Assembly: GCF_001402795.1 (NCBI RefSeq)
Contig: NZ_LIRE01000662.1
Location: 1 to 37,100, forward strand
DNA: 37,100 nt
Direction: 5' to 3'
From: Pseudanabaena sp. 'Roaring Creek'
GTDB lineage: Bacteria; Cyanobacteriota; Cyanobacteriia; Pseudanabaenales; Pseudanabaenaceae
The notes below the pieces were generated by a model that was not told where the DNA came from, did no database searches, and saw only the letters and a list, made by a program, of their open reading frames with translations. The position numbers were made by a program, and so were the translations under genes. Positions 5,069 to 17,770 of the stretch are shown piece after piece (position 1 is the first letter of the stretch; each line of letters begins with the position of its first letter).

Positions 5069-5108
5069 TTAAGCGATCGCCTATTTTGCACTTTACAGCG
5101 CTTTGCGC

Positions 5109-5200
5109 TCAAACCTAAACTAAGGGAATTTTTAAAAGCCCTGCTTCGCAACGCTTTCAAAAATTCCCTTGTGGTTCGTTTGATCGATAATTGCTGTAAT
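5109..5200. repeat. decayed copy of the long palindrome at 17664-17770
   Basis: Arms 5122-5133 and 5159-5170 (AAGGGAATTTTT and its complement) flank an apex containing CTGCTTCGCAACGC. The right shoulder GTGGTTCGTTTGATCG then ATAATTGCTGTA is nearly identical to the right arm of the palindrome at 17664-17770. The left shoulder is lost, so this is a one-sided relic. It lies just after the gene ending at 5068. Confidence 0.7.
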
Positions 5201-5330
5201 ATTACGAAAATTTACTATGAAGCGGATTATTCTTGCTAAAGATTTTCCTCTATGGTAATCAGTTAAGTGATGTGCGACTTCACCATGCACCTTTAATTCT
5301 TATTCATTGGATCGCATCTATTCTTTTGAT

Positions 5331-5509: not shown

Positions 5510-6535
5510 TTAAAACGGTAAACTTGGGATCGGAATACTGGGAATATTTGGTGTTGGGATGTTGGGAAGTGAAATCGGGAAATTTGCGCCAGGGAATAAA
5601 CCATTAAAAACATCTCGCACCTTATCAATCCCAGGGATTTGATTGGTAAAGCCCTTAAACAACTCGCTTTGGAGTAGTTGAACGAATTCATTTTCAGTTA
5701 ACTTTTGGATTATCCCTAAAGCTCCGATCGGATCGACCTCGACCTTTTCACCAGCTTTTAAAACAATCTCAGATAGCTGAGTACCAGCATTTAGATTCGG
5801 ATCGACTTTGAGTATGGGTTTGTCATTGAGCAACTGCCCGTTTAGAGGATCGAGCGGCTGACTGTCTTGAGGATTGGTTTGGGGGAGAATTGGTCTGTTA
5901 CCGTTATTGCCAGAGGGAGCCGTTGGTGGTGCCGAAAACTGCTTAACTTTAGGAGTTACCGAAGTTCCGCTATCCGTCTCAGTTGATGCAGAATTGATCG
6001 AAGGTTTTGGATTTGTGGGTTTTGGATTTGTAGGTTTTGTGGTTGGTTTCGTTTCTGGCTCAACTTCAGGATTAGCGCTACGCTTAACGACAACTTCTCC
6101 CTCTAATACTTTGACCATCTGGTTTCCTGATGTATCGACGGTCAATAAATAAGTCGTACCGCGCACTCCCGTTGTAATCGATGAGGAACAAGCATTCACC
6201 GCCCCATTAATTAAAATCGTCCCCTGTCGCAGGCGAGCACATTGACCGATGGTTAGTACCGAATTCGCGGACAGACGCGCCACAGCCCCAGAATTAAACT
6301 TGAGTGCTGTGCGAGAATCGCCCGTGCGTACTTGTTGCTGCTGGTTGGCTATATCATTGACCGATGCACGTCTATTTTGAATAAACACTTGATTGCCATC
6401 AAGGATTTCCTGCACGGTTGCTTGGACGCTTTGAGCGGATACTGGTGCAAGTTGCGGAGTAGCTAAAGCAAATATGCATAAACCTGTAAAGAAAAGAGCA
6501 AGTCGCTTTTGAAGAGGTAGCCTAAAAATTTTCAT
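5510..6535 (-). CDS. secreted FecR-domain protein
   Basis: The protein opens with a Sec signal peptide (basic KIFRLPLQKR, then a hydrophobic core, then a cleavage site near PVSA-QS). A FecR domain follows: VQEILDGNQVFI, then VRTGDSRTALKFNSGAVARL, 'GTILINGAV', and ITTGVRGTTYLLTVD...VLEGEVVV. A low-complexity linker (KPTTKPTNPKPTNPKP) and an acidic/hydrophobic C-terminal part end in short proline repeats, NIPTPNIPSIPIPSLPF. In FecR proper this fold senses a TonB receptor, but stand-alone cyanobacterial FecR proteins are often just exported. No sigma or receptor gene is next to it. The ATG at 6535 is preferred because it starts a standard signal peptide; an upstream ATG at 6568 adds 11 residues. 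The protein on the plus strand at 12400-13338 also ends in IP-rich LPF. Confidence 0.8.
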   Translation of the reverse strand: MKIFRLPLQKRLALFFTGLCIFALATPQLAPVSAQSVQATVQEILDGNQVFIQNRRASVNDIANQQQQVRTGDSRTALKFNSGAVARLSANSVLTIGQCARLRQGTILINGAVNACSSSITTGVRGTTYLLTVDTSGNQMVKVLEGEVVVKRSANPEVEPETKPTTKPTNPKPTNPKPSINSASTETDSGTSVTPKVKQFSAPPTAPSGNNGNRPILPQTNPQDSQPLDPLNGQLLNDKPILKVDPNLNAGTQLSEIVLKAGEKVEVDPIGALGIIQKLTENEFVQLLQSELFKGFTNQIPGIDKVRDVFNGLFPGANFPISLPNIPTPNIPSIPIPSLPF

Positions 6536-6665
6536 AGAAAATTTTTGAAAAAGATTCCATATATACATATGTGATTGTTCTCTCTAATTTCGCTTGAGAC
6601 AGGGTTTAATGAATTGGAGGGTGCGTCCCAATTTCTCGATCGCTAATCGCAAAGACATTGACATT

Positions 6666-7457
6666 ATGCAAAAGGTTTCATTGACATCCATGCCGATCGC
6701 CAATAATGTAGCGATCGCTATGCAGCAAATTAGTTACCAAACTAAATTTCGCACACTTTTGACAGGTATTTCCGTAGCGATCGCACAGGGTAACAAAACC
6801 GCATTAATTGGGGCAACGGGATCGGGGAAAACCACATTTTTACGCTTGCTCAATCGTTTAATCGATCCATCGGTGGGGATGATTTTGTTAAACGGCAAAA
6901 ATATTCAAGAACTTCCCATTCAAACCCTGCGACGACTGGTTGTGCTTGTGCCGCAGGAGCCGAGCTTATTAGGGATGACGGTTCAGGAAGCGATCGCCTA
7001 TCCTTTGCAATTGCAAAATTTTACTCCGAGCGCAATTGAAGCGCGATCGCAAAAATGGATTGATAAACTGCAAATCGATCGCAAGTTGCTCAATCGCTCA
7101 GAGCTAGAGTTATCCCTCGGGCAAAGGCAATGGATCGCGATCGCCAGAGCTTTAATTATGGAGCCAGAGGTCATCTTGCTGGACGAGCCAACTTCTGCCT
7201 TAGATCGAGGTTTATCCCATTTGCTATTAGATACCTTAACCGAGCTAACTCAATTACCTCAACCTGTAACCGTAGTGATGATTAATCATCAACTTGATCT
7301 AGTGCAAACATGGTGCGATCGGCTTATTTGTCTGCATAAGGGAGAATTAGTGCAGGATGCTGAGGCGAGTCTAGTTAATTGGCAAGAGATTGATGATTTA
7401 TTAAGACGAGATACAAGTTCAGGTCAAGATGGTGAATCATCGGATGACTGGACTTAA
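6666..7457 (+). CDS. ABC transporter ATP-binding protein
   Basis: This is a compact nucleotide-binding subunit of about 263 residues. Visible motifs are Walker A GATGSGKTT, Q-loop VLVPQEPSLLG, an altered signature LSLGQRQWIAIARAL (LSLGQ in place of LSGGQ), Walker B VILLDEPTSALD and the switch histidine in INHQ. The Q-loop region (PSLLGMTVQEAIAYPLQ) recalls the FetA/STAR1-like group, in which the permease is a separate gene. No permease is adjacent, so the substrate is unknown. The ATG at 6666 is chosen by homology-like start of the domain; ATG at 6609 or TTG at 6594 would lengthen it. The last 12 codons (to 7457) are part of a 235-bp repeat copied at 11002-11236, and cassette 1 begins 197 bp after the stop. 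Confidence 0.85.
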   Translation: MQKVSLTSMPIANNVAIAMQQISYQTKFRTLLTGISVAIAQGNKTALIGATGSGKTTFLRLLNRLIDPSVGMILLNGKNIQELPIQTLRRLVVLVPQEPSLLGMTVQEAIAYPLQLQNFTPSAIEARSQKWIDKLQIDRKLLNRSELELSLGQRQWIAIARALIMEPEVILLDEPTSALDRGLSHLLLDTLTELTQLPQPVTVVMINHQLDLVQTWCDRLICLHKGELVQDAEASLVNWQEIDDLLRRDTSSGQDGESSDDWT

Positions 7458-7654
7458 TGCGTCAGGATCATTTAGTGGGGCTAACACGCCATTTTGGTAG
7501 TTATTCAGAAAGTTTCTTCATAACATAACGTATGGGGTATTTAGGCAGAAAGTTTCCGTATAACGTGACATATAGGGTGATTAGGCGGAAGTTTGACTTT
7601 CGGGCTAAATCGCCTATAGTCAGATTAGACAGAAAGTTTCTGTCTAATACATAG
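7420..7654 (+). repeat. 235-bp direct repeat, copy A (includes the 3' end of the ABC ATPase gene)
   Basis: It starts at CAGGTCAAGATGGTG in the ABC gene and ends CTAATACATAG. It is roughly 85 percent identical by eye to copy B at 11002-11236. Both encode a C-terminus GQD...DDWT with stop, and both share the same series of GCAGAAAGTTT / CATATAGGGTGATTAG blocks. Copy A ends exactly at the G that precedes the TT opening cassette 1. Confidence 0.88.
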
Positions 7655-7688
7655 TTATGTCGCAACAAAAACGAAGCAGCAATGATTT

Positions 7689-8588
7689 ATGAAAATCAAA
7701 AAAGTAACTACTATTTTTGGAATTAGTATCCTATCCATTGGAGTAGTTGCTTATCTTGGTATTTCTGCGATCGCAGGTGATAAACTTTCTACGGCAAAAA
7801 GGATATTTGACCCACAGAAAATCTCTGTTTTTAACTCTAAGCCTGAAGAAGTGAAGATAATGACATCTGATGGGAAAGAGATAGCAGGCTGGTACATTAA
7901 ATCTCAAAAATCCGATAAAGTCTTAATCTTAGTGCATGGCTTAAACTCTAGCCGCACTTTTGAGTTTGCAGGTAAGTTTTCTGAGTTTGGGGCAGAAATG
8001 AATCGTCAAGGCTTTTCTATTCTGATGATAGATTTGCGAGGACATGGACAAAGTTCAGATTCACGGCTCACCTTTGGCATCACAGAGCGTAATGATATTG
8101 TCGCTGCTGTAAACTGGCTCAAGCAAAAGGGTTTCAAACCTCAGAAAATCGGGGTCTTGGGAGTATCAATGGGTTCTGCCAGTGTCATCGGAGCAGCTGC
8201 CGATGATGCCGACATTGCCTCAATTGTCATAGATAGTTGCTACGCTGAGGTTTACCCGATTATGCAAAAACATTGGCAATCCGCTTCGGGCTTACCAGAG
8301 ATATTTTTGCCTTCTACGATGATGTTTGGTCACTTGTTCACTGGGTACGATCCCACATTGTCTAAGCCCGTGCAGGAAATCAGTAAGATTGCACCTCGTC
8401 CTGTTTTGATTATTCATAGCAAGATTGATCCCTACACTCCTGTTGAAAATGCCTACAAACTCAAAGAAGCTTATCCAAAAGCAGAATATTGGGAAACCAA
8501 CGCCAAAGAACATCCAGAGAGCTATAACACAGACCCGAAACTTTATGTAGAGAAAGTCTCAGATTTCTTTAATCGTAGCCTGAGGTAA
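7689..8588 (+). CDS. membrane-anchored alpha/beta hydrolase
   Basis: The 299-residue protein starts with a signal anchor (VTTIFGISILSIGVVAYLGI) and continues as a serine alpha/beta hydrolase of the FrsA/BAAT-like kind. The oxyanion strand is LVHGLNSS (residues 81-88) and the nucleophile elbow is GVSMG with Ser150. An acid lies in SKIDPYTP (Asp247) and a histidine in KEHPESY (His275). DLRGHGQS is also typical. The catalytic triad therefore appears complete. The substrate is unknown; such enzymes cleave esters, amides or lipids at the outer face or periplasm. It is the only gene of cassette 1, starting 34 bp after the cassette boundary. Its stop at 8588 lies 2 bp before the attC, a normal cassette layout. 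It holds the last HIP1 octamer (7769-7776) before a long gap. Confidence 0.85.
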   Translation: MKIKKVTTIFGISILSIGVVAYLGISAIAGDKLSTAKRIFDPQKISVFNSKPEEVKIMTSDGKEIAGWYIKSQKSDKVLILVHGLNSSRTFEFAGKFSEFGAEMNRQGFSILMIDLRGHGQSSDSRLTFGITERNDIVAAVNWLKQKGFKPQKIGVLGVSMGSASVIGAAADDADIASIVIDSCYAEVYPIMQKHWQSASGLPEIFLPSTMMFGHLFTGYDPTLSKPVQEISKIAPRPVLIIHSKIDPYTPVENAYKLKEAYPKAEYWETNAKEHPESYNTDPKLYVEKVSDFFNRSLR

Positions 8589-8590
8589 GA

Positions 8591-8680
8591 GCAACATAAC
8601 AAATCACTGCACCCGACTCTATGTTAGGCTATCCCTGGTATCCAAAGTCAATGAAGGCGGGTGAGTTCAAACGTTGTGCC
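8591..8680 (+). other. attC-like recombination site, cassette 1
   Basis: Left arm: ACATAAC (8594-8600), then CACTGCACCCGAC. Right arm: GGCGGGTGAG, then CGTTGTGC (8672-8679). The arms pair as CACCCG/CGGGTG with one extra G on the left. The presumed cut lies after G8673. Cassette 1 opens TTATGTCGC, which matches the complement of GCAACATAA in 8 of 9 positions. Confidence 0.85.
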
Positions 8681-8743
8681 GCTTGAGTTACTAGTAGGGC
8701 GGTTCATCAGCATTATCTGTAGGATGCGCTATCTTAGGAAATC

Positions 8744-9055
8744 ATGATTTCAAGTTTTGTGCTTATGAGTGATTGGCTGTTTAATGATCCGCCAAATGTA
8801 GCCGTTCTCACAACTCATCAGGTATTGAATGGCGAGACAATTTTGTATGTCAGTCATGATGAAGAAGATGGTGCTTGGCAATTCCATACAGGTGAGATAA
8901 TTGGTGAGTCTAATGCTAAAGTTGTGGCGCTTAAAAGAATTGTCGAACTCGATCACTCTGTAATGCAGTTAGCCGATTTACCATTAGGTTGGGTAGCGAC
9001 TAGATCAGAAGCGGGGACTATTTGGCAAAGACTCAAGTGCAACAGCCGGTTGTGA
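8744..9055 (+). CDS. hypothetical protein, first gene of cassette 2
   Basis: The 103-residue soluble protein is not one I can name. Key stretches are GETILYVSHDEEDGAWQFHT, then ALKRIVELDHSVMQLADLPL and GWVATR. These look like a small conserved domain of the immunity-protein or DUF2185-like style, but that resemblance is loose. A second ATG at 8765 (MSDWLFNDPP) could be the start. It is followed by DUF6883 and DUF4926 genes with gaps of 17 and 19 bp, so the three probably form one transcript inside one cassette. It begins 70 bp after the cassette boundary at 8674. Three-gene cassettes are uncommon; the set may act together. Confidence 0.7.
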   Translation: MISSFVLMSDWLFNDPPNVAVLTTHQVLNGETILYVSHDEEDGAWQFHTGEIIGESNAKVVALKRIVELDHSVMQLADLPLGWVATRSEAGTIWQRLKCNSRL

Positions 9056-9072
9056 CATAGTGCTGCTCCAAA

Positions 9073-9405
9073 ATGCTCATTCCAAATTCAGAGAATGCGA
9101 TTGTTGATATTCGTAAACTTCGTGACTACTGCCTTAATTCAAAACATGACGATGGCAAGCACAAAGCACGGCTTTTTTCGTCAATTCTTGGAATGACGGC
9201 TGATAATGCTGGAGAGTTACGTCAAATGCTGCTTGAGATCGTCAAAGTTCAAGAAGCCCAGTTGGGAAGACGAGATGAGTTTGGGCAACGCTACACTCTG
9301 GATTTCACAATCGAATGGCAAAATAGAAGTGCAACCCTTCGGAGTGGCTGGATCATTGAGCATGGTTCAGAAATTCCAAAATTAACGACCTGTTATCCTC
9401 TGTAA
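9073..9405 (+). CDS. DUF6883-family protein
   Basis: The 110-residue protein reads MLIPNSENAIVDIRKLRDYC, then 'DDGKHKARLFSSILGMTADN', 'RRDEFGQRYTLDFTIEWQNR' and RSGWIIEHGSEIPKLTTCYP. I recognise this as DUF6883, a small domain found alone or fused to polymorphic toxins, frequent in cyanobacteria, of unknown activity. The pattern GKHKARLF...RSGWII...P is conserved in members I recall. No signal peptide or membrane helix is present. It is the middle gene of cassette 2, next to a DUF4926 gene. I believe DUF6883 and DUF4926 are often neighbours, which suggests a two-component module such as toxin-antitoxin, but this is unproven. Confidence 0.75.
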   Translation: MLIPNSENAIVDIRKLRDYCLNSKHDDGKHKARLFSSILGMTADNAGELRQMLLEIVKVQEAQLGRRDEFGQRYTLDFTIEWQNRSATLRSGWIIEHGSEIPKLTTCYPL

Positions 9406-9424
9406 TCAGTAGAGGTAATCAAGC

Positions 9425-9673
9425 ATGATAAATAATGCAGTCAAGTTACTAGATGTTGTCGCCCTAATCGTTGACCTTCCTCAGTGCAATTTATGGCGTG
9501 GGCAGGTTGGAACAGTCGTTGAGACGCTTGCGGAGGGTGCTGCATTTGAAGTTGAATTCAGTGATCGCAATGGGCGTACCTACGAGTCTTTAGGGTTGCG
9601 TCCAGAGCAAATCATGGTTCTGCATTTTGAGCCAGTACCACCCGATACAAAAGCTGAAATGGTTACGGTATAA
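9425..9673 (+). CDS. DUF4926-family protein
   Basis: The 82-residue protein matches DUF4926, a small beta-rich domain. It has KLLDVVALIVDLPQCNLWRG, 'GQVGTVVETLAEGAAFEVEF' and a closing region RPEQIMVLHF. The GxVGTVVE...AFEVEF pattern looks like an SH3-like barrel. Function is unknown, but the domain is repeatedly found beside DUF6883 and in mobile contexts (recalled). The ATG is preceded by AGAGGTAATCAAGC, a good ribosome site. The stop TAA (9671-9673) abuts the attC site of cassette 2, which starts at 9674. Confidence 0.75.
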   Translation: MINNAVKLLDVVALIVDLPQCNLWRGQVGTVVETLAEGAAFEVEFSDRNGRTYESLGLRPEQIMVLHFEPVPPDTKAEMVTV

Positions 9674-9766
9674 GCGGCACAACAACCCCAATGCACCCGA
9701 CCGCCGAGAGGTTATCTGTTGAGCGTTCGAGGTTATCTGCGGCGGGTGATTGGGAACGTTAGCAAT
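9674..9766 (+). other. attC-like recombination site, cassette 2
   Basis: Left arm GCGGCACAAC, then CCCCAATGCACCCGACC. Right arm GGCGGGTGATTGGG, then AACGTTAGCA. CCCAAT-CACCCG pairs across, with one extra left G (CAATGCACC). The presumed cut follows G9758. The cassette opens TTGTGCCGCTT at 8674, an exact 11-base complement of AAGCGGCACAA at this left end. The inner loop holds two GAGGTTATCTG copies. Confidence 0.88.
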
Positions 9767-9820
9767 CATTCTGGCGCGGCCAGTCAGACGATATAAATAC
9801 AGATACCCTGAGGTAATAAT

Positions 9821-10973
9821 ATGATAAGTGGAAGTAACAAAGACCAGATAATTATAGTTGGTGCGGGCATTGCCGGCCTGAGTCTTGCCATTCAGCTCGC
9901 TGAGAAAAAAAATACCTTGCATAGTGCTTGAAGCCAGAGAAAGTTTTGGCGGAGTTACAAGCGGCGTAAGGATTTCCGCTAAAGGCGTTCGGGTTCTTGA
10001 GAAAATTGGCATTCACAATATTGGCGAAAACACAGAAAAGTTGGTGATGTACTTTGGCACAAAACACATAAAGTTTGACGTAAAAAATGAAAAAGATGCA
10101 AGTCCTGCAATTCTCGTAACCCGATTGGCTGTGTTTGAAAAGTTGCGTGAACGTATCAATGAGTTGGGAATAAATATCATCTACAAATATAAGTTGGACA
10201 ACGTCATTGAAAATGCTGATAACGTAGTTGCAGTTTCAAGTGACGGGAAGAAAATTCAAGGAAAATATCTAGTAGGTGCAGATGGTGTAGGCTCTAAAGT
10301 AAGAAGTTTGTTAAATGCGGGCGGTACTTCTGAAAAGCGATATGCAGGTTACTTGGGGCTTGGTTTCATTTATCCAAGCGATGAGAAAATAGAAATGTCT
10401 TTATTTAATATTCTTAATGGCAACATCGGCCTTGGTTCTATCGGAAAAATAAGCCCAGACGATACTTGCAACAATAATTTCTTGTGGGCACATATACACA
10501 TGAGTGAAGCGGAAGCAAAAGCCATAAGCGACAAAGAGGTGTTCGAGAGAATAGCCGAGCGAGCAAAAGGTTGGACGCCTCATCTGCGACAAGTTTTTCA
10601 AGAGATTAAAGCCAATCCCAAAACCATTTTGTATCATCAGCCTGTTTACAACGGCAATTTGCCAAGCAAATGGTTCAACGACAGACTGTTTTTGATAGGC
10701 GATGCGGCTCATCCTTATGGTCCTGGCGGGCAAGGTATCAGCTTAGCAATGTTAGATGCGGAAGCCTTGTGTAGTTTGTTTACGAATGAACTGACAGAAG
10801 AAAAGAAAATCAATTTTCAAATAACAAGGGCAGCTATTGCAAAAGAGAAAGGCGAAAGTTCGGAAGAAAGAAACAAACCAGAAAATCAAATTACTAGTAA
10901 TTTCGGATTATGGTGGAAAGGAGTATTTATGAAGGGTTTCCATTTGTTCAGTGGTGGAAAAATAGAATTGTAA
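9821..10973 (+). pseudogene. FAD-dependent monooxygenase, frameshifted at an A8 run
   Basis: The first frame begins at ATG 9821 after AGGTAATAAT and reads DQIIIVGAGIAGLSLAIQLA, the dinucleotide-binding GxGxxG of a PF01494 monooxygenase. It stops soon after an eight-A run (9905-9912). The other frame continues IPCIVLEARESFGGVTSGVR and later GADGVGSKVRS and RLFLIGDAAHPYGPGGQGIS, the second FAD motif. Removing one A would give a continuous protein of about 383 residues. The enzyme group (TetX, PHBH, zeaxanthin epoxidase-like) hydroxylates aromatics or other small molecules using NAD(P)H. It is the only gene of cassette 3. The frameshift may be real decay, polymerase slippage at the run, or an assembly error. 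Confidence 0.8.
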
Positions 10974-10988
10974 GTGAGCGGTAAAAAT

Positions 10989-11001
10989 CCGTTGCTAACA
11001 A
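10989..11001 (+). other. truncated attC left end, cassette 3
   Basis: TTGCTAAC here complements the first bases TTAGCAA of cassette 3 (9759-9765). This is the relation seen in cassette 2. The rest of the site is missing because copy B of the 235-bp repeat starts at 11002. Only about a dozen bases survive, so the call rests on position and complementarity. Confidence 0.5.
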
Positions 11002-11236
11002 CAGGTCAAGATGATGCATTAGAGGACGACTGGACTTAATGCGCCAAGCTTATTTAGTCGGGCTAACACGATATTTGGGTGATTATTCAGAAAGTTTCTT
11101 CATAACATAACGTATGGGGTATTTAGGCAGAAAGTTTTCGTATAATGTGACATATAGGGTGATTAGCCAGAAATTTGACTTTCAGCCTATATCCCCTATA
11201 GTCAGATTAGATAGAAATTTTCCGTCTAATACATAG
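11002..11236 (+). repeat. 235-bp direct repeat, copy B
   Basis: It matches copy A (7420-7654) from CAGGTCAAGATGATG to CTAATACATAG. It encodes an orphan ABC-protein tail GQDDALEDDWT with stop at 11037-11039. It carries the same downstream blocks, with a few changes such as AAAATTTT and CAGCCTATATCCCC. It joins the broken attC of cassette 3 to the presumed start of cassette 4. Confidence 0.88.
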
Positions 11237-11378
11237 CTAGGCGGCTTAATCTTCTGGTGGCGACAGGTGCTTGAAAGTTATCTGTATGAAGCAACGCTAT
11301 AGCTCTCTAAGGGTCTTGGCGATCACAAAATAAAGCAACATAATTAAAGTGCCGATATTGAAGCATTGTGGGTGAGTT

Positions 11379-12284
11379 GTGACAAGCCACGAAGATAGCC
11401 ATTTTGAGTCACAAACAACCTGTGACGCTCTGCTTAGCTTAATGCAAGAGCGAATTTTGGGCATTGACCGTAAAGAGGCAAAAAATACCTGTGCAATCTT
11501 TCATCGAACAGGCAATCGCTTTGTATTTCTTTACCATCGGAAAAATAGTCCAAATTTAAGAATTTACTTTCGAGCTGAACCAGATTTAGATTTTCAAGTT
11601 CCAAGTACGATCAATCTTCAAAAGCGAGCAAAGATCAATAGTACTTGGGAAAAGAACTTCCCTTTCTTTTTTGAGCTTGCACCATCTGATAATTTAGAGG
11701 AAGTTGCTGAGTTTCTCGTAAAAGAAGCTTATCCGCTTTCCCTAAAATCTACTTCAACAGTATCGGGATACGAACAGCCTGAACTTTTCGAGCAGCGTTC
11801 GTTAATTGAAGCTGAAGGATATTTTGATGCTGACAACATTGAAGATGCAAGACAACGAGTAATAACTTCGATTGTGCAGCGACAAGGACAAGCAGAATTT
11901 CGTCGTAAATTATTAGAGGTTTATAACTATCAGTGTCAAGTGACAAGATGTGATGCTGAACCAGCCCTTGAAGCAGCACATATCATTTCGTATAAAGGTG
12001 ATAGAACTAACCATGTAGCTAACGGTCTCTTACTAAGAGCAGATATACATACTCTCTTTGACTTGCACTTATTATCTATTCATCCTGAGACTTATAAAAT
12101 TGTGATTTCTTCCCAATTATCGGCTACGTCCTATGTAAAATACGAAGGTCGAACTATATCTTTGCCACAACAAAAAAACGTACGACCAGACTCGGTAGCT
12201 TTGACGAAGCATTATGAGCTATTTCGGCAAAATTCCACATCTAAAAGCCTTCAGCATCCTAACAATTCAGGTGCAGCGGATTGA
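11379..12284 (+). CDS. HNH endonuclease-domain protein
   Basis: This is a 301-residue protein. The N-terminal two-thirds is not recognised (MQERILGIDRKEAKNTCAIF, then a segment with FFFELAPSDNLEEVAEFLVK). The C-terminal third is an HNH nuclease domain of the PF13391 type: RRKLLEVYNYQCQVTRCDAE, 'PALEAAHIISYKGDRTNHVA', 'NGLLLRADIHTLFDLHLLSI'. The AAHI histidine, the N of NG and the H of DIHTLFD are the catalytic set. Stand-alone proteins of this type are often restriction-like or defence nucleases. The start is a GTG at 11379 with a weak site, so uncertain by a few codons. The gene lies in cassette 4, and its last codons overlap the left arm of the attC (12254-12344). No methyltransferase is nearby. 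Confidence 0.82.
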   Translation: MTSHEDSHFESQTTCDALLSLMQERILGIDRKEAKNTCAIFHRTGNRFVFLYHRKNSPNLRIYFRAEPDLDFQVPSTINLQKRAKINSTWEKNFPFFFELAPSDNLEEVAEFLVKEAYPLSLKSTSTVSGYEQPELFEQRSLIEAEGYFDADNIEDARQRVITSIVQRQGQAEFRRKLLEVYNYQCQVTRCDAEPALEAAHIISYKGDRTNHVANGLLLRADIHTLFDLHLLSIHPETYKIVISSQLSATSYVKYEGRTISLPQQKNVRPDSVALTKHYELFRQNSTSKSLQHPNNSGAAD

Positions 12285-12344
12285 CCGAAGCCGCTTGGAT
12301 TGGATGCAAAGATCTGGACAACCGCTGACCCGAACCGTTAGCCT
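12254..12344 (+). other. attC-like recombination site, cassette 4
   Basis: Left arm TCCTAACAATTCAGGTGCAG then CGGA; right arm CCGCTGACCC, GAACCGTTAGCC. The arms pair as TAAC..TTC.GGT.CAGCGG with an extra left G (GGTGCAG against GGTCAG). The presumed cut follows G12337. The HNH stop codon lies inside the left half. Confidence 0.85.
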
Positions 12345-12399
12345 ACTTAGATTCATGGGAAAGCTATTTAAGGGTTTGACAGATTTACCTATAAAGAAT

Positions 12400-13338
12400 A
12401 TGAAGACATTTCTGAATGTTATCGCGGGGTTTGCAGTAGTTTGCACTCATGCTGTTTTAGCTATTCCAGTTTGTGCATATCCTGTATCGCAATCTGTTTG
12501 CAGCAAGAGCGATCAGTATGCCGTGTTTGCAAAGAGGCACTTGTTTGGTGGAAACCCTGGTAAACCAGGAAGTGTTGCAGACAAGGTCGATCTACAAAGT
12601 GAACATGAACACCTTTTCTTTTGTAACAATGGCAATATAACCAACAACATTGGATACGGGACAAGAAGTGGTGCGCCTATTTCTGAAGGGTATCTGTTTA
12701 GCTATACCAGCAATCAAATTAATTCAGGTACGGAGGTTGAAGGTGGAAAAACCAAACCTTTACGCTTTGTTGTGGTTGATCAAGAAACATATGACTCCGA
12801 CATAATGAACGATGTATTAGGTGATTTGCCAAATATGCTGCCAGACAGGTGTAGGATATCAACAGATACTTATGTACTTGTCGGAAACAACTGTCAGAAT
12901 TTTGCTGACAAGCTTAGATCTGAATACTGGAAGCGTCTTAAACCAAAGATTACTGCGTTTTACTGTGAAGGGCAGAAGGATGTGGATGTTTGCAATCTCA
13001 ATTGGGAGCAATCAACCGCTTTAATTATTGAATATTCTGACAAGAGTAAAAAGTCCCTTAACTGGCAGATTAGTGGATATGTGATTGGTGCGCCAACCGA
13101 TCAGGGTAAGGTTTCATCTCCGAATGGGAAAAGCACTATAAATTCAAACTTAAAATGTATTTGTAGTGGTAACGATTGTCGTGATACAAGAAACTACACA
13201 ATGTCCGCATCAATTACTAATGAAAGAGGCTCGCAAGCATCAGCCAAACTCAAGCTTCAGTGTAGCGCGGGAGCAGGTCAAATCATTAGAGATATTTTAC
13301 CCAAAATCCCTATTCGTATTCCTGGGTTGCCATTCTAG
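12400..13338 (+). CDS. exported protein with a His/Cys motif, cassette 5
   Basis: The start chosen is ATG 12400, which opens a signal peptide (MKTFLNVIAGFAVVCTHAVL, cleavage near AIPVCA). An upstream ATG at 12355 in the same frame is possible. The mature part, about 285 residues, has QSEHEHLFFCNNGNITNNIG, then YVLVGNNCQNFADKLRSEYW. A histidine in an early strand and a cysteine in an NNCQNF helix suggest the permuted papain-like (LRAT/PPPDE/NlpC-like) layout. The activity is inferred only. Several further cysteines (CICSGNDC, LQCSAG) could form disulfides. The C-terminus is ILPKIPIRIPGLPF, like the FecR protein's. The stop codon TAG overlaps the end of a short inverted-repeat element. Confidence 0.65.
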   Translation: MKTFLNVIAGFAVVCTHAVLAIPVCAYPVSQSVCSKSDQYAVFAKRHLFGGNPGKPGSVADKVDLQSEHEHLFFCNNGNITNNIGYGTRSGAPISEGYLFSYTSNQINSGTEVEGGKTKPLRFVVVDQETYDSDIMNDVLGDLPNMLPDRCRISTDTYVLVGNNCQNFADKLRSEYWKRLKPKITAFYCEGQKDVDVCNLNWEQSTALIIEYSDKSKKSLNWQISGYVIGAPTDQGKVSSPNGKSTINSNLKCICSGNDCRDTRNYTMSASITNERGSQASAKLKLQCSAGAGQIIRDILPKIPIRIPGLPF

Positions 13339-13625
13339 TGCGATCGCCGATCTTGTAGGTTGGGCTGAGGTGACGAAATCCAACCTTGCTTTTATTCCTT
13401 ACCTTAGTTTGTTGGGTTTCACTTCGTTCAACCCAACCTACATTTTATTCCATACAAGGTGACAGACCCAAACATTGCCTTTATTTCTTCCCTTAATATT
13501 TCCTCGCTAATAAAATCTGAGTTCTCACTTCGTCAGAGAGAGCGTAGTAACTCGACAATGAGGTTATGACTTCTCATAGTTGGGTTGCGTTCCTTAACCC
13601 AACCTACAAGATCAGCGATCGCACT
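13337..13625. mobile_element. MITE-like element with 28-bp terminal inverted repeats
   Basis: Ends 13337-13364 and 13598-13625 are inverse copies (AGTGCGATCGCCGATCTTGT then AGGTTGGG) with one mismatch. The interior holds TTGGGTTTCACTTCGTTCAA then CCCAACC, and a TTGGGTTGCG...AACCCAAC hairpin, a repeat style common in cyanobacteria. It contains no gene. The left end supplies the AG of the stop codon of the gene ending at 13338. Confidence 0.8.
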
Positions 13626-13688
13626 TAATGCGGCAAAGCATAATGCTTCCTGCTAGAATGTCACAATACAGTTCAATTCAGGTGCAAT

Positions 13689-14060
13689 ATGTCCCTAATG
13701 AGCGCCCCACCCAAGTTTCAATCCGCCCTTCCCCCTTTACGTTGGGATGAAGCAGGAGGTATCCGTATAGGTTCGAGCCGAGTGACTCTAGATAGTCTAC
13801 TCGCTACATACCACAATGGTTGCACTCCTGAAGAAATCGCTATTCAATTTTCAGTTCTGAGGTTAGAAGACATATACAGTACGATTGCCTACTATCTAAA
13901 CCATCGTCAGGAAATCGACAATTATTTAGAGCAGCGCAATCAACAAGCCCAAAAACTCAGGCAACAACTTACTGAAAAGCACAACTTAGTCGATCTGAGG
14001 CATCGCTTGCTTACTCGTCAGTCACAAAAGGAATCGAGGCAAAATGCGCCTTCTATCTGA
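13689..14060 (+). CDS. DUF433-family protein, probable antitoxin
   Basis: The 123-residue protein has an N-terminal stretch GGIRIGSSRVTLDSLLATYH, then NGCTPEEIAIQFSVLRLEDI and a helix-turn-helix-like YSTIAYYLNHRQEIDNYLEQ. This is the DUF433 (VapB-like) DNA-binding fold, followed by a charged coiled C-tail. DUF433 proteins pair with DUF5615 PIN-like toxins as type II toxin-antitoxin modules. The next gene overlaps it by 17 bp and is such a toxin. The antitoxin likely binds its own promoter in the 63 bp between the MITE and the ATG. Confidence 0.82.
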   Translation: MSLMSAPPKFQSALPPLRWDEAGGIRIGSSRVTLDSLLATYHNGCTPEEIAIQFSVLRLEDIYSTIAYYLNHRQEIDNYLEQRNQQAQKLRQQLTEKHNLVDLRHRLLTRQSQKESRQNAPSI

Positions 14061-14394
14061 CGAAAATTTTAACGGGGCTATATTGCGTGGTCTGATGAGA
14101 CGTTTGCCTAAACTAGATTTAGTTCGTGTCCAAGACGTAGGGCTGATGCACACTGATGATCCAGTTATTTTGGAATGGGCTGCTAACGAGGAACGTATCT
14201 TGCTTACCCATGATGTTGCCACTATTACGATGTATGCATACGAGCGCATCAATCAAGGATTACCTATGGCTGGGGTTGTTGAAGTGATTGCGACAGCACC
14301 CATAGGTAAAATTATTGATGATTTAGAGCTATTTATTTGCTGTAGCGAACCCGAAGAATATGAAGGACAAGTTCTTTTTATCCCTTTCTCCTAA
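14044..14394 (+). CDS. DUF5615 PIN-like toxin
   Basis: The 116-residue protein begins MRLLSDENFNGAILRGLMRR, has 'VRVQDVGLMHTDDPVILEWA' and ILLTHDVATITMYAYERINQ, then a C-terminal GVVEVIATAPIGKIIDDLEL. The acidic residues DEN near the start, TDD and THD fit the Mut7-C/PIN-like RNase fold of DUF5615. Members are presumed RNases inhibited by the DUF433 partner just upstream. The overlap of 17 bp indicates translational coupling. Together with the antitoxin it could stabilise the cassette array. The stop is 6 bp before the next attC. Confidence 0.82.
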   Translation: MRLLSDENFNGAILRGLMRRLPKLDLVRVQDVGLMHTDDPVILEWAANEERILLTHDVATITMYAYERINQGLPMAGVVEVIATAPIGKIIDDLELFICCSEPEEYEGQVLFIPFS

Positions 14395-14400
14395 AGTCCA

Positions 14401-14490
14401 GAAGCCTAACACTGCGTTGGAGCCAACTTATCGAAAGCGATTTCTAAAAGCCAAAGCTTGACTATGGCGGCTCAACTAGACCGTTATGCC
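14401..14490 (+). other. attC-like recombination site, cassette 5
   Basis: Left GAAGCCTAACACTGCGTTGG then AGCC; right GGCGGCTCAACTAGACCGTT then ATGCC. The arms share TAAC, GTTG and AGCC with one extra left G (GTTGGAGCC against GTTGAGCC). The presumed cut follows G14483. The left end matches the complement of the cassette-5 opening TTAGCCTACT in 8 of 10 bases. Confidence 0.83.
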
Positions 14491-14578
14491 AATCCAAAGA
14501 GTCTGTTAAAAAAGTTGTGTGTACTCTCAGGCAAGATCGATAAATTCAATGTAAGATTTGGGTGTTAATTAGAATATT

Positions 14579-15253
14579 ATGAATAAACATCCTATCTTAT
14601 GGAAGTTTTGGCTGATATGGGTGATTGTTTCAGCAACCAGTGAATTTATCGGTGTTTCCTGTGGTTTGCTTGCTGTCGCGACCATTGCTTTCATATCAAC
14701 ACCTGGGTTGGGTAAAATGGTCAGTTCAGAAGGCTTGTTGATTAGCTCCTTGCTAGGTGGCATCATAACTGGGGCGATCATAGGAATCTTTCAAGTTTTA
14801 GTTCTAAGAAAGTACTTTTCTCATATTAAGTACTGGATTACTGGCAGCATCGCTTACAGTGCGGTCGCTATGTCAATCATCTGGCAAATGAAACCTTGGG
14901 AGGGTGCCTCAAATGTTATCTGGTTGAAAAGCCTCTCAATCGGTGTCATCGTGGGAGCTATTGTTGGTTTTGTTCAATGGCAAGCTCTATCTCCGCACTT
15001 TACGCAGGCATCTCGACGGAAACCGGTCTTATGGTTTTTGATTAGTCCAATAAGCATGATGTGTAGTTTCCCCTTACTATTCTTTGGGGATGCTGACTTT
15101 GTATTCAATTTATTTAGTCCGTTCTTTATACTAGAACCAAGAATTTTTATATATTTGGGTGGGTTTATCCTCCATGCTGCCATCACTGGACTATGTTTAG
15201 TCTGGTTATTACAGCAACGCAGTGCGATCGCCCCTCGCCCTAATCTGGGGTGA
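14579..15253 (+). CDS. polytopic membrane protein, cassette 6
   Basis: The 224-residue protein has about six transmembrane helices, in two similar halves. Each half holds a glycine-rich helix followed by a Q/W signature: GAIIGIFQVLVLRKYFSHIK then YWITGS, and GAIVGFVQWQALSPHFTQAS then RRKPVLWFLIS. This GxxxGxxQxxxLxxx(21)W repeat is seen in many cyanobacterial membrane proteins of unknown role, probably small-molecule or sensor proteins; the function is not known. It begins 95 bp after the cassette boundary and ends 130 bp before the degenerate attC. The C-terminal tail (SAIAPRPNLG) contains a HIP1 octamer. Confidence 0.7.
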   Translation: MNKHPILWKFWLIWVIVSATSEFIGVSCGLLAVATIAFISTPGLGKMVSSEGLLISSLLGGIITGAIIGIFQVLVLRKYFSHIKYWITGSIAYSAVAMSIIWQMKPWEGASNVIWLKSLSIGVIVGAIVGFVQWQALSPHFTQASRRKPVLWFLISPISMMCSFPLLFFGDADFVFNLFSPFFILEPRIFIYLGGFILHAAITGLCLVWLLQQRSAIAPRPNLG

Positions 15254-15381
15254 GGTAAGGAAACTCTCAGCACTCTTCTCCTACGTGGTACTGCGAAATG
15301 AGATCTCAGGGAAGGCTCCTACATTGAAGCAATCGCCTTGGCACATCAATGATGAAAAATCAGAAAGACGATGGCGATCGC

Positions 15382-15475
15382 CAAGTATAAAAATCCCAAT
15401 TCACACCGACTGCTAAGAGATTACGACTAGAGTTCGATGTTATTTGCAGCGGGCGATCGCGAACGTTATACCGAA
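15382..15475 (+). other. degenerate attC-like site, cassette 6
   Basis: Left arm GTATAAAAATCCCAATTCAC then ACCGACTGC; right arm GCAGCGGGCGATCGCGAACG then TTATACC. The inner loop AGAGATTACGACTAGAGTTC resembles the loop of the site at 9674-9766. The left core has lost the AAC (TATAAA), so it may be inactive. The presumed cut follows G15465. Confidence 0.6.
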
Positions 15476-16177: not shown

Positions 16178-17185
16178 CTAACCAATCTGGTAGGTTTGAT
16201 TCCGTCCTAACTCTTTAGCTCGATACAAGGCGTAGTCAGCAGCCGTAAGTAGTACCGAAGGATGAGAATCAGCCATAGGTACTAAGGAAGTTACCCCCAT
16301 ACTCAAGGTCACAAATGTACTAACTGCCGAATCATCATGGGGAATCATCAAATCCACTAGCCCCTTACGAATAACTTCTGCAATTGCCATAGAACCTTCT
16401 ATGTCAGTATTTGGTAAAACGACAACAAATTCTTCGCCGCCATAACGGGCAGCTAAATCCGCTGGACGACGCACCGATTGTTTAATCACCGAAGATACTT
16501 TGCGGAGACAGTCATCGCCAGCCACATGCCCATAGGTGTCGTTGTAGTTTTTAAAGAAATCGATATCACACATGATCAAAGACAGTGGCAATTGATCCCT
16601 TGCTAACCTCTGCCATTCCTGTTCAAGGTACTCATCAAAACACCGACGATTGGCTAATTGCGTCAACCCATCTAAGTTGACCAAGCGCCCTAACTTCTCA
16701 TTAGCTTCTTGTAGCAATGTTTCCGCAATAATTCTGCTGTTAATCTCTTGCTTTAACCGCTCATTTTGTTCTTGCAACTGTCTTTGTAATCGTCGCAAGG
16801 TCAACTGATTCTCAATTCTCGCTAGCACTTCGGCAATTTGAAATGGCTTGGTAATATAGTCCACCCCACCGACAGCAAAAGCTTCAACCTTATCTAATAC
16901 TTCGTCCCGCGCACTTATGAAAATCACAGGAATATCACGGGTCAGCACGCTGGACTTCAATTGCTGACATACTTGAAACCCGTTCATATGGGGCATATTA
17001 ATATCTAGCAACACCAAATCAGGTGGATCGCTATGGATATCTGATAGTGCCATGTAACCATCCTCCACACCTCTTGCATGATATCCCTTGCGAGTTAGCA
17101 TGGTAATTAGCAAGTGTAAGTTAGGCGGCGTATCATCTACGACTAAAACGCACTCTTTTTTAGGTATGGCTTCAGGCAGTTGCAT
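16178..17185 (-). CDS. response regulator with GGDEF domain (diguanylate cyclase)
   Basis: The 335-residue protein has a receiver domain (residues about 12-130; phosphorylation Asp in LVLLDINMP, KPF lysine near the end), a coiled linker (LRRLQRQLQEQNERLKQEIN), and a GGDEF domain (about 165-335). The active-site GGEEF is present, and five residues ahead lies RPAD, the RxxD inhibitory site. It should make c-di-GMP when the receiver is phosphorylated and be inhibited by product. No histidine kinase is adjacent. The ATG is preceded by CTAGGAAAATG, a fair ribosome site. It is a single gene, with 800 bp of repeat-rich spacer upstream. Confidence 0.9.
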   Translation of the reverse strand: MQLPEAIPKKECVLVVDDTPPNLHLLITMLTRKGYHARGVEDGYMALSDIHSDPPDLVLLDINMPHMNGFQVCQQLKSSVLTRDIPVIFISARDEVLDKVEAFAVGGVDYITKPFQIAEVLARIENQLTLRRLQRQLQEQNERLKQEINSRIIAETLLQEANEKLGRLVNLDGLTQLANRRCFDEYLEQEWQRLARDQLPLSLIMCDIDFFKNYNDTYGHVAGDDCLRKVSSVIKQSVRRPADLAARYGGEEFVVVLPNTDIEGSMAIAEVIRKGLVDLMIPHDDSAVSTFVTLSMGVTSLVPMADSHPSVLLTAADYALYRAKELGRNQTYQIG

Positions 17186-17663: not shown

Positions 17664-17770
17664 TACAGAGCAATTACCGATCAAACGAACCACAAGAAAA
17701 ATTCTGAAAGCGTTGCTTCGCAACGCTTTCAGAATTTTTCTTGTGGTTCGTTTGATCGGTAATTGCTGTA
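17664..17770. repeat. 107-bp almost perfect palindrome
   Basis: The whole block folds into one stem of roughly 50 bp with a TTC triloop at 17717-17719. Its only clear asymmetry is near the outer ends (GAGCAATTACC against GGTAATTGCTG). The same right shoulder occurs in the decayed copy at 5109-5200. It sits 224 bp upstream of ccmO. Confidence 0.85.

Follow-up and report, generated by a model that had tools for sequence, protein, structure and literature searches.

By definition, an integron gene cassette extends from the first T of one R' box to the G of the next, and the attC site that properly belongs to it is the one seen in the excised circle (PMC2674596). In most cassettes, self-pairing within this site is not limited to the 7-nt R boxes but covers 9-11 consecutive nucleotides (PMC2727003), lengths of 57-141 are quoted for attC sites, and in most of them the extra base of the L'' arm is a G on the bottom strand (PMC3053210). 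Integrons and attC sites are already known in cyanobacteria (PMC2426708, PMC8352920, PMC9668308), and clusters of at least two attC sites less than 4 kb apart and devoid of intI have been defined as CALINs (PMC9668308). A further variant, the delta-attI-type cassette, has been reported in class 1 and class 2 (clinical) integrons (PMC12901181); in such cassettes an attI-containing segment replaces the attC after its R'' box (Partridge 2009 as cited in PMC12901181; PMC12901181). The present analysis concerns a stretch of 37,100 nucleotides (hereafter "the window") from a contig of Pseudanabaena sp. 'Roaring Creek', which carries an array of six cassettes.

The array is an integrase-less remnant of an integron, decayed and with a doubled attI. 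Its second cassette is read here, with a probability of roughly 0.95, as a standard cassette of a Pseudanabaena chromosomal integron, in which intI was deleted and an attI copy was gained, and in which the pairing of 11-12 nt between the two ends of the cassette is a footprint of its boundaries. This pairing in itself reflects a known and ordinary mechanism, since both extended pairing and cyanobacterial integrons are in the literature; its surroundings, namely the loss of intI and the doubling of attI, are of greater interest.

Complementarity between cassette starts and R'' boxes

The cassettes and the elements discussed in this section, all on the + strand, are the following:

7655-8673, +: cassette 1, alpha/beta hydrolase (7689-8588), with attC1 at 8594-8679 (Pfam, attC covariance model)
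8673-8684, +: G/TTGTGCCGCTT, crossover G with the opening 11 bases of cassette 2, forming R' of the circle; complementary to 9672-9683 at every base
8674-9758, +: cassette 2, 1085 bp, from G/TT to G/TT, with three small ORFs: 8744-9055, weakly Imm33-like (below the Pfam cut-off); 9073-9405, DUF6883; 9425-9673, DUF4926 (Pfam, attC covariance model)
9672-9683, +: AAGCG followed by GCACAAC (9677-9683), the R'' box of attC2 with its extension on the 5' side, complementary to the start of cassette 2
9677-9764, +: attC2, R'' GCACAAC to R' GTTAGCA, 75 bits with R1, bottom-strand hairpin
9759-10999, +: cassette 3, FAD monooxygenase (Pfam)
11237-12337, +: cassette 4, HNH endonuclease (11379-12284), with attC4 at 12257-12343 (Pfam, attC covariance model)
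12338-14483, +: cassette 5, ORF of unknown function (12214-13338 as listed) and a DUF433/DUF5615 pair, with attC5 at 14404-14489 (Pfam, attC covariance model)
14484-15465, +: cassette 6, ORF 14579-15253 without a Pfam family, with a decayed attC6 at 15385-15471 (34.5 bits)

An earlier note on this DNA had proposed that the opening of cassette 2 is an exact complement, over 11 bases, of the end of its own attC. The match is indeed exact, TTGTGCCGCTT at 8674-8684 being the reverse complement of AAGCGGCACAA, although the latter lies at 9672-9682 and not, as had been given, at 9673-9683, one base off. With the conserved G8673/C9683 added, the run comprises 12 contiguous bases. Both boundaries of the cassette fall at G/TT (G8673/TTGTGC and G9758/TTAGCA), and both core sites (GTTGTGC, GTTAGCA) depart from strict GTTRRRY at one base; the R'' box GCACAAC is likewise one base off RYYYAAC, a change that is matched in the cassette's own start, GTTGTGC.

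Could two intergenic stretches have come to form such an inverted repeat by chance? Inverted pairs of 11-mers within 1.2 kb are not rare by themselves, with approximately 15 expected per window under a Markov model and 67 seen (overlaps counted), and thus it is the position of the match that must carry the claim. One end of the run falls precisely on the G/TT crossover, and the other on the final base of the R'' box in the attC that follows. GTT-anchored boundary pairs of the same geometry, drawn at random from the same window outside the array (38,105 trials), yielded runs of at least 7 in 0.37% and of at least 8 in 0.034% of cases. The earlier note had accepted that its claim would fall if random gene boundaries showed such complementarity as often; not one of these matched boundaries reached 10. 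Together with the excess of own over swapped pairs described below, this comparison already refutes the chance reading, to which we assign a very low probability.

The relation is not confined to cassette 2. Among 40 distinct cassettes bounded by means of attC sites, from 11 loci of Pseudanabaena relatives and the window, the start of a cassette pairs with its own R'' over a mean run of 6.7, compared with 4.1 when starts and boxes are swapped between cassettes (permutation p about 5e-5), and beyond the R box 2.25 against 1.62 of six positions match (p about 5e-5), both differences exceeding all 20,000 permutations in a set whose members are not all evolutionarily independent. The starts of two loci (L051 and L055) were placed by attI alignment and are displaced by one base, so that the own score comes out slightly too low. 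Runs of at least 10 were found in 8 of the 40 cassettes, and the maximum of 12 is common to cassette 2 and to one cassette of the relative G047; complementarity between own start and R'' is therefore a general property, which cassette 2 illustrates well without standing out. Within the window, contiguous runs counted from the G amount to 7 in cassette 1 and 8 in cassette 3, so that the earlier description of the relation as holding approximately for cassettes 1, 3, 4 and 5 is a fair one, strongest in the first two. The array does not follow the rule throughout, with cassettes 4, 5 and 6 fitting less well (runs of 1, 5 and 0): cassette 5 matches 5 of the 6 box bases, cassette 4 matches 4 of 6, its first T reading C, and the site of cassette 6 is decayed.

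attC sites and their folding in the excised circle

A scan of the window combining a regular expression with folding revealed four consecutive strong attC-like sites, all on the + strand (8594-8679, 9677-9764, 12257-12343 and 14404-14489), as well as weaker matches scattered elsewhere. A covariance model built from attC sites of the genus scores attC2 at 75 bits and attC1, attC4 and attC5 within 64-85 bits, scores that are not independent because the seed included these four sites, which the scan had found without the model. The same model yields the decayed fifth site (15385-15471, 34.5 bits) and six more attC sites in the organism's own genome, five of them at E < 0.01. attC2 is 88 long, inside the quoted range, and forms an imperfect inverted repeat with L'' and L' arms and an extra base that folds on the bottom strand. 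It shares with canonical cassettes, such as those of class 1 integrons and the Vibrio cholerae VCR, the G/TT boundaries, an R'' complementary to the cassette start, a pairing of approximately 11 nt and a bottom-strand hairpin. A difference lies in the extra base of L'': of the 45 attC sites of the window and its relatives in which it could be called, 39 have G on the top strand and C on the bottom, the opposite of the usual arrangement (PMC3053210).

The integron integrase cuts between the G and the TT of the GTTRRRY core, so that, in the integrated state, a cassette carries the final bases of its own attC at its front. Excision would then join ...G to TTGTGCCGCTT..., and in the bottom-strand attC hairpin restored in this way the first bases of the cassette are expected to pair with R'' and with the bases just 5' of it. 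On this reading, the run of 11-12 nt is a footprint of the cassette's boundaries and of past mobility. When the bottom strand of attC2 was folded, the circularised form reached -30.6 kcal/mol and the integrated form -15.8, which bears out the fold test suggested in the earlier note; 300 random GTT starts placed on the same attC gave -17.4 kcal/mol (sd 1.7), and 0 of 300 folded as well as the cassette's own start. For the remaining cassettes, random starts folded as well as the own start in 1 of 300 cases for cassette 1, 8 for cassette 5, 25 for cassette 4 and all 300 for cassette 6, whose decayed attC has no circular fold advantage. The reading of the cassette 2 boundaries as those of an integron cassette is thus supported by the attC covariance model, the own-versus-swapped comparison, the random-boundary comparison and the folding results. 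These sequence features suggest that the cassettes were in the past excised and integrated by IntI.

A sequence resembling attC2 is present on a Chondrocystis plasmid (92.7% over 82 bp; query 1088-1168 of window positions 8594-9764), and similar sites occur on plasmids of Kovacikia, Scytonema and Nostoc, as expected of a mobile site family. The DUF6883-DUF4926 pair (9073-9673) has homologues of about 74% identity in seven relatives, and there is one on a Stanieria plasmid; no attC was found near the homologues of the seven relatives in the stretches fetched, and consequently they supply no orthologue of the cassette in which covariation of start and R'' could be tested.

Several other features of the window were recorded. 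The reading frame of the cassette 3 monooxygenase shifts at a run of eight A (9895-9935, near 9905), indicating either a pseudogene or a sequencing error. Between the two gene modules of cassette 5 lies a MITE-like 34-bp inverted repeat (91%; 13337-13370 and 13592-13625), while a perfect 48-bp palindrome with a 3-nt loop is located at 17669-17767, and a similar but less perfect one lies at a distance of 12.5 kb (5093-5201). Searches of the window against Rfam (at gathering thresholds) and for tRNAs returned no matches.

Loss of intI and doubling of attI

Three further features, again on the + strand, define the left side of the array and its internal duplication:

7420-7472, repeated at 11002-11054, +: 3' end of the ABC-ATPase gene (6594-7457) and intI-deletion junction; in the relative G046 (locus L070) intI lies between both parts
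7470-7654, +: attI copy a, ending GTCTAATACATAG/TT, homologous to the intI-proximal attI of relatives
11052-11236, +: attI copy b, internal to the array and downstream of cassette 3

Cassettes 1-3 are flanked by a 238-bp direct repeat (7420-7657 and 11002-11239, 88% identical). In many Pseudanabaena genomes, a sequence matching the right 185 bp of this repeat separates a divergent intI from the first cassette, and the matches end ...TAATACATAG/TT or nearly so; as the same sequence adjoins intact intI genes in relatives, this part of the repeat is attI. For the same reason the repeat, despite its palindromes, was rejected as a MITE or transposon end. A broader proposal would take the repeats for the termini of some other element that relies on hairpins (IS200/IS605-like, or a MITE), and the units between them for something other than integron cassettes; the strong palindromes of the attI region (TTAGACAGAAAGTTTCTGTCTAA) and its multiple copies in the genus would fit it. 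However, many attI copies adjoin integron integrase genes that score above the TIGR02249 cut-off, TTRRRY-like cassette starts follow nearly all the attI copies listed, and the attC sites match the R''-L''-L'-R' architecture, all of which makes such an element very improbable.

The array occupies the conserved Pseudanabaena integron locus beside the ABC-ATPase gene. In G046 the ABC gene is followed by intI on the opposite strand and then by attI and the cassettes, whereas in the window the 3' end of the ABC gene runs straight into attI, intI being cleanly deleted relative to G046; the relatives G011 and G014 display a different, larger deletion at the same place. An attI site is thus present beside the first cassette (7470-7654), as in a complete integron, and the intI gene is missing. 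No integron integrase was detected in the organism's own genome, a 770-contig draft in which intI could lie in a gap, the best TIGR02249 match being 35.3 bits against a cut-off of 265. Two ORFs of the window considered as intI were rejected: 16178-17185, a response-regulator/GGDEF protein, and 5510-6568, which has no Pfam match. The array would at present be immobile unless an integrase were supplied in trans. With five attC sites within 7 kb and no intI in the assembly, it also falls under the definition of a CALIN, but its two attI copies still allow it to be traced back to an integron with a deleted integrase, so that it is more than a bare cluster.

Cassette 3 keeps only the R'' of its attC (TGCTAAC, 10993-10999), the second attI copy standing in place of the rest; a full attC ending at 11034 or 11236 was considered and rejected, the remainder being attI. 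The repeat segment follows this R'' directly (11002-11239), which is the arrangement of delta-attI-type cassettes, with the difference that it is found here on a cyanobacterial chromosome and that the segment spans the intI deletion into the neighbouring ABC gene. The route reconstructed here would involve the deletion of intI between the 3' end of the ABC-ATPase gene and attI, and then the gain of a second copy of the ABC 3' end and attI, replacing most of the attC of cassette 3. Since both copies carry the same deletion junction, copy b came from a locus already without intI. This last point bears upon the mechanism of the gain. Instead of homologous or illegitimate recombination after the loss of intI, the second copy could be a delta-attI-type end made by integrase-mediated off-site recombination, with the integrase provided in trans or acting before the junction spread. 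The retention of cassette 3's own R'' with the attI-bearing segment directly after it, as in the class 1 and 2 cases (PMC12901181), speaks for this possibility, as do delta-attI-like ends at other loci (L143 and L022/L154). Against it, copy b bears the deletion junction of copy a and the ABC 3' end and so points to a source locus without intI in cis, and we regard off-site recombination as possible though rather unlikely.

Orphan attI sites in the genus

In a sample of relatives, which is not a census, about 20 attI copies showed no intI match in the upstream sequence retrieved, 1.5-2 kb in length (L126, L129-L133, L136, L137, L139-L145 and L151-L155), and nearly all of them are followed by a cassette-like TTRRRY start. 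Other arrays also present unusual arrangements. An ankyrin-repeat cassette closed by a 34-bp tail of attI in place of an attC occurs in two different genomes (L022:4600-5560, on contig C288 of the organism's own genome, and L154), and a similar end, R'' followed by attI, is found twice at L143, 3111 bp apart. At L063 (G047:C1:3515000-3534950, - strand), an ORF-less cassette of approximately 217 bp, starting TTATGCCTAACCGA, is present in about 16 copies in one array, some in tandem beside attI and others scattered among coding cassettes.

It is conceivable, although we consider it improbable, that the orphan attI sites of Pseudanabaena are working landing platforms served in trans, the integron being spread over several loci, and that the duplicated attI of the window is one step in this direction. 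If so, the integrase for such platforms would come from elsewhere in the cell or the population. For the identification of cassettes, the complementarity between start and R'' provides a practical boundary marker, and own-versus-swapped scoring finds units without annotation. The locus itself records the decay of a chromosomal integron, in which intI was lost cleanly, attI was kept and doubled, and the attC sites are eroding, and the occurrence of orphan attI sites across the genus makes the use of cassettes in trans a testable question.
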